From Halobacteriales archaeon YIM A00010 (GTDB lineage Archaea; Halobacteriota; Halobacteria; Halobacteriales; Haloarculaceae): a stretch of 64,000 nucleotides of DNA. Position 1 is the first letter of the stretch; every line of letters starts with the position of its first letter. This document shows positions 8,579 through 61,560 of this stretch, piece after piece. The notes below the pieces were generated by a model. It was not told the DNA's origin. It did not search any database and saw only the letters and a list, made by a program, of their open reading frames with translations. Location of the stretch: assembly GCA_025041175.1 (NCBI GenBank), contig JAKCFJ010000001.1, forward strand, positions 2,621,526-2,685,525, given 5' to 3'. A program made the position numbers and the translations under genes.

Positions 8579-8780
8579 CCCACCTTTTTCCGCTCGGGTG
8601 TGCTACAAAAGACGCTTCGCGCCTTTTGGCATCTCGCAAGAGCGTTGCTCTTGCGGACCTCGCGGAGGCTCCCTCCGCTCAGTAACGAAGGATCTTCGAT
8701 CTTTGGAACCAAGCAAAGCGCACCGCTCGCTCGGAAACGCTGCCGCGAGAACGAAGCGCTCGCGGGAACGGATTTCTGGT
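8579..8780. repeat. Intergenic hairpin array a
   Basis: This fills the gap between aIF-1A and RIO1. It opens with the motif CACCTTTTTCCGCTCGGGTG shared with arrays at 10585, 11890 (inverted) and 61235. It contains a perfect hairpin at 8635-8655 (9-bp stem CGCAAGAGC, loop GTT) whose reverse complement recurs at 61464-61484. Next comes a segment around 8656-8690 that matches 61434-61463 in reverse complement apart from a small rearrangement. A further hairpin around 8690-8706 (GGATC, loop TTC) resembles the GAA/TTC-loop hairpins found inside tnpB. Confidence 0.75.
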
Positions 8781-11275: not shown

Positions 11276-11880
11276 CGTTGCCGTTGTTCCAGTTTCGGAA
11301 TCGGCAGGGCGAGGTCGTGAACCTCTCGGCCGCCACGGATCGGGCGGTGGTGTCGAAAGCGGAGCTGTACCACAGCATCGATGTCGGGGAAGGATTATGG
11401 TGTCGCCGAGCGAAGCTCGGCTGCTAACCAGAAATCTTCGATTTCTGGTGATGTCGCCCGTGTCAGAGCACTGGCTGTGCCCACGCCACGCAGATCGAGC
11501 AGATACTGGCGACCGCCGGGCTTGGCAGGACCACAACGGGCGGCTACGACGAGTTGCCGGGAATTGCGCGGTTCACGCGCTACGCGGCCACCGGTGAGAC
11601 CGTGATCGAATGCTGGTTCGATAACGGCGCGTGCGTGCGCTTTCACGAACAGCGTGATGGCACAGTTGTGCAGTCGGTATTCACGCCCGAGGAGTCACGC
11701 GAACCGGCCGAGATGACCGAAAAACCGGATGTCGACAGCGCGCCCGCCTGTCTGGTCGACACGCTGGTGACCTACTGCCAATATCGACAGCGCGGCGATC
11801 TCGCTGGGTTACGCCAGCGCCACCCCGAGCTGGCGTGCGTCGTCGTCGGTCCCAACGCTGGACACACCGCCGACGACTGA
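11272..11880 (+). pseudogene. Unrecognised gene interrupted by a hairpin insertion element
   Basis: The frame opens at 11272 (MTLPLFQFRNRQGEV...) and meets stops at 11425 and 11449, both inside the hairpin element. It then continues in the same frame to the stop at 11880 (RFTRYAATGETVIECWF...). Removing 51 bp (the 44-bp core at 11406-11449 plus one 7-bp flank) leaves 558 bp, 186 codons, with no stop. I do not recognise the protein; the middle would contain a Cys-rich stretch (WCRPCQSTGC), so it may bind zinc like its upstream partner. As it stands it cannot make a full protein unless the second half starts internally at 11554. Confidence 0.6.
11406..11449. repeat. Two-hairpin insertion element E6
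   Basis: A 44-bp core: hairpin of stem GCCGAGC with loop GAA (11405-11421), linker TGCTAA, hairpin of stem CCAGAAATC with loop TTC (11428-11448). It is flanked by GGTGTCG on the left and GATGTCG on the right. It is identical to the element at 50765-50808 inside tnpB except that the second loop is reversed (TTC here, GAA there). The insert adds TAA and TGA in the host gene's frame. Confidence 0.85.
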
Positions 11881-49606: not shown

Positions 49607-49797
49607 AGCCACATACCCGGCTGTCGCAGGCTTAAACTTTGCCAAGGAGTAGTCCCCGTCCCACCGTGGGTGAGGATGACTCCAACAATCAACAGAGTAC
49701 ACAAAGATTCTTAAGTGATAGCTGTCCAAGTAGAAAGATAGTGGAGCAGACGTTCAAGTATCGGGCATACCTGACAGATGAGATAGCGCGGGAAGTC

Positions 49798-49851
49798 GTT
49801 CGAAAATCGAAGATTTTCGTGATGACGAGAGACTTCGTCTCTCGAACCACG
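49798..49851. repeat. Two-hairpin insertion E1 in tnpB
   Basis: 54 bp, in frame (18 codons). Hairpin 49801-49819 (stem CGAAAATC, loop GAA) is identical to 61415-61433 in array d; second hairpin 49827-49843 (stem GAGAGAC, loop TTC). The linker contains TGATG. The exact ends are inferred by comparison with typical TnpB (EIAREV...RRHINIC). Confidence 0.75.
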
Positions 49852-50241
49852 CGCAGACACATCAACATCTGTCGGGAAGTGTATAATCATGCCCTCGGTC
49901 TCTATAATGCTGCTCCAGATGGTGACAAACCCACCTACAACCACCTGCAGAATCAGCTTCCGAGCTGGAAGCGAAAATGGAACACATGGGCATCGGTGAA
50001 CGCAAAGTGCCTGCAGATGGCCGTCCGACGCATTTTCAACAGTCTCAGCGTCCTCAAGTCCCTCAAATCAAAGGGATATAAGGTTGGGAAGTTGAAGTGG
50101 AAGACCCCGAGAGAGTACCGGAGTATTGTGTTCAATCAGTCCGGTTTTGACGTGGATAGTAACACGGGCCGCACTGACCACGCGACACTTGAACTCTCGA
50201 AACTGTGCGATGACGACGAAGTCATTGATCTCGACTATCAT

Positions 50242-50296
50242 CACCAGAAATCTCCGATTTCTGGTTAGCAGCCAGAACCTGTGGTTCTGGCGGCAT
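50242..50296. repeat. Two-hairpin insertion E2 in tnpB
   Basis: 55 bp. Hairpins 50244-50264 (stem CCAGAAATC, loop TCC) and 50271-50291 (stem GCCAGAACC, loop TGT), linker TTAGCA. Flanked by a 4-bp direct repeat CATC. It brings a stop codon and a +1 shift. The orientation is opposite to E3. Confidence 0.85.
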
Positions 50297-50764
50297 CGGC
50301 CGCTCCCCGAGGACGGAACCATCAAAGAAGTCCGGTTAAAAGAAGAGAAATCGGGAAAATGGTACGTGTCGGTCGTCGTTGATTATGATCCAGAGCACCC
50401 AGAGAAACCCCCTGTTGACAGTATTTCAGTCGAAGATACGGTTGGGATCGATCTCGGCATCCTAAAACTCGTCCACGATTCGAACGGTACCGCTGTGTTG
50501 CCGTTAGATGAGTCTACAGACCGCGAGCGCATTGAAAAGTGCCACCGAGCCCTCGCGCGCAAACAGCACGGCTCGAACAACTGGGAGAAGGCTCGCATCA
50601 AACTCGCTGAAGCCTACGAGACGCTCACGAACAAGCGGACAGATTTCATCGAGAAACTCGCACGCAGTTACACGAAACAGTACGACGCCGTGTTCTTGGA
50701 AGATCTGAACGTGCGTGGGATGCTTGAGCAGGATTCAAACGGCCGGAATATCACGGCGATGTCG

Positions 50765-50808
50765 CCGAGCGAAGCTCGGCTGCTAACCAGAAATCGAAGA
50801 TTTCTGGT
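50765..50808. repeat. Two-hairpin insertion E3 in tnpB
   Basis: A 44-bp core flanked by a perfect 7-bp direct repeat GATGTCG (50758-50764, 50809-50815); 51 bp added in frame. Hairpins: stem GCCGAGC loop GAA (50764-50780) and stem CCAGAAATC loop GAA (50787-50807). Same core as E6 at 11406 except for the reversed second loop. Confidence 0.88.
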
Positions 50809-51001
50809 GATGTCGTGGTATGAGACGTTCTCGACGTTCAAACGACACGGTGATAAAAATGCCTGTCACGTCATCACCGTCTCACCAGAAGGCACGACAA
50901 AGCGGTGCGCGCGGTGTGATGTGGCATCGAGCAAAGCGCTCTGGGTGCGCGAGCATAGTTGTCCGAGTTGTCGGTATGAAGCCAATCGAGACGAAAACGC
51001 G

Positions 51002-51052
51002 GTCGCCAGATGTAATCTGGCGGGCAGCCAGAACGCAAGCGTTCTGGCGACG
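51002..51052. repeat. Two-hairpin insertion E4 in tnpB
   Basis: 51 bp, in frame, just after the RuvC-III aspartate. Hairpins 51004-51022 (stem CGCCAGAT, loop GTA) and 51027-51048 (stem GCCAGAACGC, loop AA). Confidence 0.8.
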
Positions 51053-51219
51053 GCGTTCAACGCACAGAAACTCGGCTTGGAAGAACTGGGCATCGACTAC
51101 GAGATCGATGAACTACTAGGTCTGGGAGAGGCCGAAGATACGTCTGCGGAGACTGCGCTCCCTACGGGTGCAAACCTGAACGACAAGTCGTTGTTCTGTG
51201 TTGTGTCTGCAAAGCGCGT

Positions 51220-51269
51220 TCGCCAGAACCGCAGGTTCTGGCTGGCTGCCAGACGTAGTCTGGCAACGT
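51220..51269. repeat. Two-hairpin insertion E5 in tnpB
   Basis: 50 bp with CGT on both sides. Hairpins 51222-51242 (stem GCCAGAACC, loop GCA) and 51248-51264 (stem GCCAGAC, loop GTA). It shifts the frame within the last 15 codons. Confidence 0.82.
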
Positions 51270-51382
51270 CGTTGAAACAGGAAGCCACGGGCCACCTGTC
51301 CCGGGGTAATTCACACGTTCCGCGTTGGGCGACTGTGGATGTGACCTAGACCATAATAGATAATAAACAATATCTCGACACA

Positions 51383-52849
51383 TTACAGCACGTCCTCGGC
51401 GTCGAGCGTGTCGTCGTGCATCCGGCCGCGCACCGTGATCTCCTCGCCGAGGCGTACGTCCGCCTCGGTCGCCACTGAAAGGGTGGACTGTCCGTCGTCG
51501 AGGATCACCGGATCGCCGGTTTGGACGACGGTTCCGGTGAATTTTCGGCGTTCGGCGTCGCCCGCTGGATCGGTGCCGGTGCTGTCGGCGTCCGCGTCGT
51601 CGGCGAACGAGCCGAGCGTGCTCGTTCCCGTCGAGCCACCCGATCCCGCTGTGTCCGCCTCGGCGTCGGATTCGCTCACCAGCGACGTGATGTCGTCGAT
51701 CACCGTGACCGTCGACCGCCACCCTGCGGAGGCCTCTATGGAATCCTTCCAGCCGTCCTGTATCTCTACGTCCGCGAACAGCGCCTCATCACCCGGTGCG
51801 AGATCGAGATCGGCCTTGTCTCCCCAGAGCGCGACGCGGATATCGCCCGTCTGATCCTGCACACGGACGTTTCTGACCTGACCCTCGCTCCCGTCGTCGC
51901 GCTCGAACGTCCGTTTGGAATCAGTCGAGCGGATGACGCCGGCGAGATCGACCGTTTGGTCGAGTTCGAGCGAGTCGATCGACGTTGCGTCGGGAACGAA
52001 CTGGATCTCCTCCTCGATCGGTTCGATCGCGCCACGGTCACCGACGTGGAGCTCCAGCTGCCCGTTGCGCTCGCTGACGGAGCCGTCGATGATCTCGATC
52101 GACTCCCCCGTCGAAAGCTCCTCGGCGTTGTCGGCCTGTTCGTCCCACAACGCGACGCGCACGCGGCCCGTTTCATCGCCGAGCAGGAGGTTCGAAACGC
52201 GGCCCTCGCTCCCGTCGTCGCGGGTGAACGTATGGGGTGGCTCCGTCGTGAGCACCTGCCCCGAGATCGTGACGTCGTACTGTCCCATCGAAAGGCCCTC
52301 GATGGTGGTCCCCGGATCGAGCGTCACGTCGATCTCGGTGTCGGGAGCGGGCTCGACGCGGTTCGCGCTCACCTCGACCCCGGTGTACCCCTCTGTGGGA
52401 CGGCCTTTGATTTGGAGCACGTCACCCCATTCGAGTTCCTCGGTGGCCGCTATCGCGCGCTCGTCCCACAGAGCAACGCGGATCCGATCGGTTTCGTCCG
52501 CAACCTCGACGTTCAACACGCGGCCCTCACCGTCGTCACCGTCGCTGCCTTCCTCCTCCTCGCTGCCTTCCTCCTCGCTGCCTTCCTCCTCGCTGTCACC
52601 CCGTTCGAACGTGCGGAGTTCGCCGATGGAAGTCACCTTGCCGACGAACGTCACTTCTCGCGGACCTGGCTCGATGGCCGCAATCGAATCCGAGCGGCTA
52701 CCGGTGAATTCGTGAGCAACGATCTGCGCGGCGGTTTCTTCGTCTACGAGTCCCACCATATCTTCGGCCTTCTCCTCGACGGCCTCCCTGAACTCTTCTT
52801 CGCTGACGTCCGCATCCAACTCCTCATAAAGATCCTCGATAAGGCTCAT
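51383..52849 (-). CDS. RPA-like single-stranded DNA-binding protein with multiple OB folds
   Basis: 488 residues from the ATG at 52849 (MSLIEDLYEELDADVSEEEF). Three clear OB-fold repeats share the pattern TFxRDDGSEGxVxNxxxxDETGxxRVALWDE (around residues 65-160, 175-270, 285-370), followed by a shorter C-terminal OB-like segment after an acidic/Ser linker. Archaeal RPA proteins protect single-stranded DNA in replication and repair. A Glu/Ser run (EEEGSEEEGSEEEEGS) is encoded by a 15-bp tandem repeat near 52547-52603. No zinc finger is visible and no COG3390-type partner is adjacent. Confidence 0.85.
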   Translation of the reverse strand: MSLIEDLYEELDADVSEEEFREAVEEKAEDMVGLVDEETAAQIVAHEFTGSRSDSIAAIEPGPREVTFVGKVTSIGELRTFERGDSEEEGSEEEGSEEEEGSDGDDGEGRVLNVEVADETDRIRVALWDERAIAATEELEWGDVLQIKGRPTEGYTGVEVSANRVEPAPDTEIDVTLDPGTTIEGLSMGQYDVTISGQVLTTEPPHTFTRDDGSEGRVSNLLLGDETGRVRVALWDEQADNAEELSTGESIEIIDGSVSERNGQLELHVGDRGAIEPIEEEIQFVPDATSIDSLELDQTVDLAGVIRSTDSKRTFERDDGSEGQVRNVRVQDQTGDIRVALWGDKADLDLAPGDEALFADVEIQDGWKDSIEASAGWRSTVTVIDDITSLVSESDAEADTAGSGGSTGTSTLGSFADDADADSTGTDPAGDAERRKFTGTVVQTGDPVILDDGQSTLSVATEADVRLGEEITVRGRMHDDTLDAEDVL

Positions 52850-53003: not shown

Positions 53004-53076
53004 GTCCTGATAGGGTAGTGGACTATCCTCCTGGCTTGCGGAGCCAGGGACCGGAGTTCAAATCTCCGTCAGGACG
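53004..53076 (+). tRNA. tRNA-Arg (anticodon GCG)
   Basis: A 73-nt cloverleaf: acceptor GTCCTGA/TCAGGAC (53004-53010, 53069-53075) with discriminator G, anticodon stem CTGGC/GCCAG with loop TTGCGGA (anticodon GCG, reads CGC/CGU), T arm CGGAG-TTCAAAT-CTCCG. There is no intron and CCA is not encoded. Confidence 0.95.
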
Positions 53077-61234: not shown

Positions 61235-61560
61235 TTGCCCTCCCACCTTTTTTCCGCTCGGGTGCGCTGCGCGCACCCTCGCCTTTGCGAGAGCAAGCTC
61301 TCGCAGTCGTCGGGCGCAGCCCGACTGCTTGAGGCGCGTCGCGCCTCTCTGGCTCCCACTCGCTCCGCTCGCGGGAACGCAAAAAAGATGGGGCAAAAAA
61401 AGCCGCTCGTGGTCCGAAAATCGAAGATTTTCGTCACTGAGCGGAGGGGACCTCCGCGAGGTCCGCAAGAGCAACGCTCTTGCGAGATCACGAAACGGCT
61501 TCGCCGTTTCGAACGACTCCGCTTCGCTACGCTCGCGGTGAGTGTACTCACGTCCCGCTC
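61235..61560. repeat. Intergenic hairpin array d
   Basis: It opens CCACCTTTTTTCCGCTCGGG and holds at least eight perfect hairpins in a row: 61261-61277 (GGTGCGC, loop TGC), 61286-61305 (TGCGAGAGC, loop AA), 61309-61325 (GTCGGGC, GCA), 61331-61347 (GAGGCGC, GTC), 61415-61433 (CGAAAATC, GAA; identical to the unit in tnpB E1), 61448-61464 (GGACCTC, CGC), 61464-61484 (CGCAAGAGC, AAC; reverse complement of 8635-8655) and 61491-61511 (CGAAACGGC, TTC). It also carries the GGGGCAAAAAAAGCCGCTC module of arrays b and c. It lies upstream of aroA. Confidence 0.85.

Follow-up and report, generated by a model that had tools for sequence, protein, structure and literature searches.

A tnpB gene in this haloarchaeal genome is broken by five short palindromic segments, which raises the question of whether the segments entered the gene as mobile elements or belong to its ancestral sequence, and, if they moved, what they are. 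We analyzed the gene within a 64-kb stretch of DNA, hereafter the window (genome G000, contig C1, 2621526-2685525), and compared it with related TnpB genes and with genomes across the order.

Architecture of the interrupted tnpB gene

Insert edges were set by comparison with uninterrupted TnpB genes. With these edges the five inserts add 54, 55, 51, 51 and 50 bp, and removing the resulting 261 bp from the 1569 bp of the gene leaves 1308 bp, or 436 codons, which reproduces exactly the values in the initial annotation. That annotation had also described each insert as two perfect hairpins with stems of 7–10 bp and loops of 2–3 nt, and we found this hairpin-linker-hairpin structure at all five positions (Table 1). 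Three inserts (54, 51 and 51 bp) keep the reading frame and two (55 and 50 bp) do not, as had been proposed, and the TnpB motifs expected after their deletion appeared as three Pfam matches on the insert-free protein (PF01385, PF07282 and PF12323, corresponding to OrfB_IS605, Cas12f1-like_TNB and HTH_OrfB_IS605). As it stands, the gene is a predicted pseudogene, with frameshifts and a TAG within insert 2.

The elements in tnpB proper comprise 47–54 bp, each consisting of two back-to-back hairpins. The 64-kb window has 13 adjacent pairs of perfect hairpins, whereas dinucleotide shuffles gave 0.15 on average, and folding as single-stranded DNA gave exactly two hairpins per insert (z from −2.9 to −8.4). 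The Rfam search returned nothing at the elements, the sole match being a tRNA gene (RF00005, 53.6 bits). The insertion sequence (IS) with tnpB lies between histone-like and RPA-like genes, and genomes G003 and G005 have no IS there.

Table 1 Interrupted tnpB gene, its inserts and related features. Positions refer to the window unless a locus is named; bracketed units are hairpins.
Feature	Position	Strand	Layout	Remarks
tnpB (IS605 OrfB / Cas12f1-like)	49741..51309	+		five double-hairpin inserts; Pfam on insert-free protein, ORFs
Insert 1, family B, 54 bp	49796..49849	-	TCGTT-[CGAAAATC.gaa.GATTTTCG]-TGATGA-[CGAGAGAC.ttc.GTCTCTCG]-AACCA	hairpin core 49801-49844; at G^C, without target duplication; empty in G004, boundary rule
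Insert 2, family A, adds 55 bp	50241..50293	+	TC-[ACCAGAAATC.tcc.GATTTCTGGT]-TAGCA-[GCCAGAACC.tgt.GGTTCTGGC]-GG	hairpin core 50243-50291; CA either side (50239-50240 / 50294-50295)
Insert 3, family A, adds 51 bp, in frame	50763..50810	-	C-[GCCGAGC.gaa.GCTCGGC]-TGCTA-[ACCAGAAATC.gaa.GATTTCTGGT]-GA	hairpin core 50764-50808; TGT either side (50760-50762 / 50811-50813)
Insert 4, family A, adds 51 bp, in frame	51003..51050	+	T-[CGCCAGAT.gta.ATCTGGCG]-GGCA-[GCCAGAACGC.aa.GCGTTCTGGC]-GA	hairpin core 51004-51048; CGG either side (51000-51002 / 51051-51053); absent in G004
Insert 5, family A, adds 50 bp	51220..51266	-	TC-[GCCAGAACC.gca.GGTTCTGGC]-TGGC-[TGCCAGAC.gta.GTCTGGCA]-A	hairpin core 51222-51265; CGT either side (51217-51219 / 51267-51269)
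IS with tnpB	49640-51387			
tRNA gene	53004-53076			
Family B, four-hairpin variant, 107 bp	61410..61516	+	TGGTC-H-TCACTGA-[GCGGAGG]-GAGGTC-[CGCAAGAGC]-AGATCA-H-AACGA	second double hairpin within linker of first
Array of four hairpins	61260..61347			family A short type and others; same intergenic region as 61410..61516
Intergenic modules	61240-61420		CCACCTTTTTTCCGCTCGGGT ... GCAAAAAAGATGGGGCAAAAAAAGCCGCTCG	hairpins and T-runs
Family A copy	11404..11451	-		inside member of multi-copy gene; TGT either side; other gene copies empty
Multi-copy gene, ~210 aa	~10.6-11.9 kb; L021 14730-16055			
Double hairpin	8635..8678	+	[CGCAAGAGC]-GACCTC-[GCGGAGG]	type nested in 107-bp variant; free or within family B linkers, giving the 105–107 bp four-hairpin form
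Family A, long			[ACCAGAAATC]-TAGCA-[GCCGAGC]	
Family A, short			[GAGGCGC]-AAGCA-[GTCGGGC]	
Family B, core			[CGAGAGAC]-TCATCA/TGATCA-[CGAAAATC]	
Family C			[GGGAAATC]-GTATCCA-[GCAAATCGC]	
Family C in tnpB tail	L031 19358; L042 8965; L143 2686; L154 2269; L155 4059			

Empty sites and recurrent targets

The segments could be ancestral pieces of tnpB, or of the omega RNA that overlaps it, with empty copies having lost them, and the initial annotation had named shared segments at shared sites in close relatives as the sign of such an origin. The closest relative, the tnpB of the same-genus genome G004 (72% DNA identity), divides on this point: it is filled at sites 2, 3 and 5, with an extra insert beside site 5, but lacks inserts 1 and 4. 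The site of insert 1 is empty in every other TnpB gene compared except L031, and L295 is empty at the sites of inserts 3 and 5, the latter being filled in L040 and L043 as well as in G004. When the flanks of 253 distinct clusters were joined and searched against all collected DNA, 103 proved to have an equivalent without interruption. The filled and empty pairs, at inserts 1 and 4 relative to G004 and many elsewhere, bear out the proposal of tiny mobile palindromic elements, and at the level of sequence the empty sites confirm that the inserts are true insertions and not ancestral gene sequence. These elements had further been called active, of which mobility holds, while present activity may be read only from species-level polymorphism.

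Sites shared between genes were hit repeatedly. Among ~30 TnpB genes compared, L156, from the same genome, and L160, from G002, carry inserts at site 2 as well; both belong to other TnpB clades, in which their closest relatives lack an insert at this site, and site 2 represents independent insertion at the same nucleotide in three TnpB lineages. At the C terminus, several genera have TnpB genes with an insert at the site near aa 398, as an ancestral segment would lead one to expect, but this site holds family B elements in some genes and family A elements in others. Hits on identical nucleotides recur in tnpA and tnpB of IS200/IS605-type elements, which indicates that the sites shared by related tnpB genes, sites 2, 3 and 5 of G004 included, reflect recurrent targeting and not ancestral sequence. 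Between G000 and G004, insert 3 differs at three positions and insert 5 at one, far fewer than in the flanking codons (dS ~1.7), and the two site-2 inserts have different second hairpins, such that parallel insertion, or local conversion, is the better reading of the inserts in common than shared descent. In addition, the same elements occur in intergenic DNA, in tnpA and in an unrelated gene family, and filled copies are nested inside clades of empty ones. The empty sites and nested phylogeny largely refute an ancestral origin, which we consider very improbable.

The ratio dN/dS was 0.11 between the G000 and G004 copies of tnpB. With dS at saturation, and with insertion recurring at the sites in common, this value gives no firm indication of function once the inserts are in place, and we rejected it as proof that the interrupted gene is under selection.

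Element families, insertion rules and distribution

DNA searches of the same genome gave numerous short matches, all of them to the inserts. Clusters of two to six hairpins occurred in forty 20-kb pieces of this genome, several of which were picked for holding insert matches, and the clusters sorted into groups by conserved linkers and ends. Inserts 2–5 belong to family A, with TC..GA ends and direct repeats of 2–3 bp derived from the target (CGG, TGT/ACA, CGT/ACG and CAG, and only CA at site 2), and insert 1 to family B, the full form of which is TSGTY-hairpin-TSATSA-hairpin-RACGA with a length of 52–58 bp (96 copies). The single palindromic family originally proposed is thus palindromic as described but comprises at least two families with different insertion rules.

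In 35 of 44 family B cases with an empty counterpart, exactly the 5 + 5 end bases outside the hairpins were removed together with them; the junction was G^C in 24 of 25 distinct empty sites, the remaining one being gapped, and nothing was duplicated, the element being TSGTY...RACGA. Distinct targets were G^C in 31 of 33 cases compared to a background of 8.2% GC dinucleotides, with C and G favored at positions +4 and +5. Family C likewise inserts at G^C without duplication. We did not retain palindromic targets as a general rule: the tendency was suggestive in one set, whereas complementarity of family B flanks was not above chance over distinct targets, although several sites are palindromes. 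Copies within tnpA or tnpB accounted for 19 of the 96, while matches to these genes covered 4.1% of the bases searched, and within Y1 tnpA a recurrent target is located immediately before the HUH motif. The in-frame length of 54 bp was found in 16 of 18 copies inside tnpA/tnpB versus 39 of 78 elsewhere (p = 0.003, from about six independent targets). Family C was observed at one spot in the C-terminal tail of tnpB (GGAAG^CCCC) in many paralogs, and this stretch may encode the omega RNA.

Local origin through replication or repair errors, with template switching creating palindromes and no element moving, would account for every hairpin being a perfect palindrome and for stems that change as whole blocks. 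The 54-bp consensus, linkers and ends nevertheless recur across genera, at unrelated sites and with fixed junctions. For family B this common sequence at unrelated sites refutes template switching, and we give such an origin almost no credence.

Elsewhere in the window, neither G003 nor G005 has the hairpin arrays found at 61260-61517, and in both genomes the intergenic region that here holds the 107-bp variant measures ~113 bp and is free of elements. The intergenic modules with T-runs recur in the same genome and its relatives, and they could act as terminators or form a repeat family of their own. The multi-copy gene of ~210 aa, which has no Pfam match and is flanked by inverted repeats of ~80 bp, is present at numerous loci in G003, G005 and the same genome; in the last of these, one family A element occupies an identical position in several copies and is missing from others.

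Family A- and B-type elements are widespread across Halobacteriales and largely undescribed. Covariance models detected family B in 77 of 97 genomes of the order, spanning 41 of the 47 genera sampled (model R3; per-genome counts are lower bounds, with at most 54–55 candidates taken per genome, and both strands may match one copy) and the long type of family A in 52 of 97 genomes (model R2). Scanning 84,980 prokaryote species for the exact family B pattern gave 99 stretches, and haloarchaea alone were among the matches listed, which include Haloquadratum, Halorubrum, Haloarcula, Natrinema and Halorussus. Phage and viral collections, IMG/VR included, contained no element match, and a plasmid search with insert 2 found nothing. 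Sequence comparison thus shows insertion, fixed ends, precise targets, recurrence at identical nucleotides, order-wide spread and the frequency of IS200/IS605-type targets, and from it we infer that the elements move in trans as folded DNA. The known range of small transposase-free mobile DNA in haloarchaea accordingly extends beyond a single genus to the greater part of the order, with exact ends and target rules now available, and recurrent insertion at identical nucleotides can mislead both annotation and phylogeny of TnpB.

Folded structure, mobilization and known small repeats

Stem pairs of family B in the same genome and ~30 others comprised 602 Watson–Crick pairs, one G-T pair and five mismatches, and hairpin 1 in 96 further copies, a set whose selection allowed up to one mismatch, gave 788, two and four, respectively. 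Stem sequences differ between copies as whole blocks and vary in length. Three-base loops were GNA or TNC in 143 of 188 cases in the 96 copies (12.5% expected), and d(C-GNA-G) minihairpins are stable. In the alignment of the short type of family A, 9 of 14 pairs had changed at both bases and no pair at a single base, among copies chosen for perfect stems. Pairing counts are inflated in general, as copies were found through perfect stems or a covariance model. The few wobble pairs favor constraint or copying at the level of DNA and not RNA, which suggests that the hairpins are kept as a DNA structure, a claim partly shaped by pairing-based detection.

We propose, with a probability of roughly 0.78, that the inserts are tiny (~47–58 bp) non-autonomous mobile elements consisting of little beyond two hairpins, recognized as folded DNA and moved in trans. 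Recognition in folded form would explain stems that stay Watson–Crick perfect, with GNA/TNC triloops, while their sequences change. The folded double hairpin would be the form recognized, and a trans-acting recombinase or transposase would connect a GC site with the two element ends, TSGTY and RACGA. The leading, though weak, candidate is an IS200/IS605-type HUH (Y1) transposase or a similar hairpin-reading enzyme. Y1 transposition involves hairpin ends and no duplication, which fits family B, but uses a fixed target 5′ of the element, whereas the ends and target of family B are symmetric. Y1 transposase genes were detected in 50 of 97 genomes and their counts correlated only modestly with family B counts (ρ = 0.37), but 19 of the 47 genomes without detected Y1 still have at least five family B matches, a distribution that does not support Y1 as sole mobilizer. 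Target duplication in family A and its absence in family B imply that one mechanism may not serve both. We rejected a MITE of a known IS, as 2.3 Mb of sequence contained no element of greater length that shares these ends, and the search for an autonomous parent over these 2.3 Mb yielded no convergent pair of half-elements 150–4000 bp apart. It is doubtful, though conceivable, that the elements constitute an order-wide class, exceptionally small among prokaryotic mobile elements, that move as folded double hairpins, insert cleanly at G^C without duplicating the target and, through repeated hits on identical nucleotides in tnpA and tnpB, naturally hold IS200/IS605-type transposons in check.

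The elements might instead be REP/BIME-like units whose spread depends on a RAYT-type tyrosine transposase and which may have RNA roles as terminators or transcript stabilizers. REP/BIME and the GTAG- and CGTC-tagged repeats consist of tagged hairpin pairs, form arrays and are in some cases intragenic, CGTC types have no known transposase, and some dimers are inserted in palindromes (PMC3733652). Hairpins and linkers alternate here as well, in arrays of up to seven, CGTC/GACG adjoins the stem as in CGTC-tagged REP dimers, and Y1 genes are present in about half of the genomes. However, in CGTC REPs the stem begins with A/T pairs, the loop has 4–5 nt and there is a CCA tail (PMC3733652), whereas our elements place CGTC/CGTT by a CGA stem with a 3-nt GNA/TNC loop and have no such tail, a departure from the REP consensus; many element-rich genomes also have no Y1 genes, and scarce G-U pairs argue against RNA constraint. 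We therefore view a REP/BIME-like nature as unlikely. No haloarchaeal family with G^C insertion was found described in that study, which classed the Rickettsia conorii elements RPE-4 and RPE-6 as CGTC repeats (PMC3733652). The initial comparison with Rickettsia palindromic elements, short palindromic inserts in ORFs that are often in frame, is fair as regards behavior, and the in-frame bias here comes from about six independent targets.

That annotation knew of no such elements in haloarchaea, yet small mobile repeats (SMRs) and PATEs had already been described in Haloquadratum, and the literature examined yielded nothing else close in haloarchaea. PATEs, which include 52-bp terminal-only IS605 remnants, are of similar size, palindromic and haloarchaeal, but have near-terminal palindromes and no terminal inverted repeats, whereas the ends of family B are inverted and enclose two hairpins (PMC3119063). 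SMR-A of Haloquadratum walsbyi are transposase-free, insert into IS605 and PATE elements without target duplication and measure ~110 bp, and the question of their mobilizer has been raised (PMC3119063). SMR-A and SMR-B share with our elements a haloarchaeal host, terminal inverted repeats and lack of a transposase, and their strong preference for IS605-type elements resembles the enrichment of family B in tnpA and tnpB, but they are longer (~110 bp, or 80 bp in HqIRS41, compared to 52–58 bp) and were reported from Haloquadratum only and with no description of a double-hairpin plan (PMC3119063). SMR sites lie mostly outside the transposase ORF, whereas many copies here are inside tnpA or tnpB. 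SMR-A prefer near-terminal palindromes.

Our elements could thus be SMR-A or direct relatives, possibly a defense against IS605/PATE. Family B has inverted ends unrelated to known transposons and no duplication, as SMR-A do, occurs in Haloquadratum MAGs and includes a rare four-hairpin variant of 105–107 bp, close to the SMR-A length. The Haloquadratum copies are nevertheless 54-bp two-hairpin forms, SMR-A families were reported without sequence similarity and are compared here by description only, and the 2–3 bp repeats of family A depart from SMR-A. We hold this identity tentatively, at somewhat less than even odds. The questions raised for Haloquadratum SMRs, namely their mobilizer and the disabling of IS605-type elements, become directly testable.

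In structural plan, the elements belong to the double-hairpin class, being two stem-loops with a short linker, in genes and spacers, and mobile. Double-hairpin elements of Allomyces mitochondria have two adjacent hairpins, lie in genes, cause no duplication and show signs of mobility between close species (PMC2800124). They are fungal and mitochondrial, family A here has 2–3 bp repeats, and the likeness is one of structural plan. Set side by side by description, Haloquadratum small mobile repeats and these Allomyces elements appear to be the closest described counterparts of the double hairpins in tnpB.
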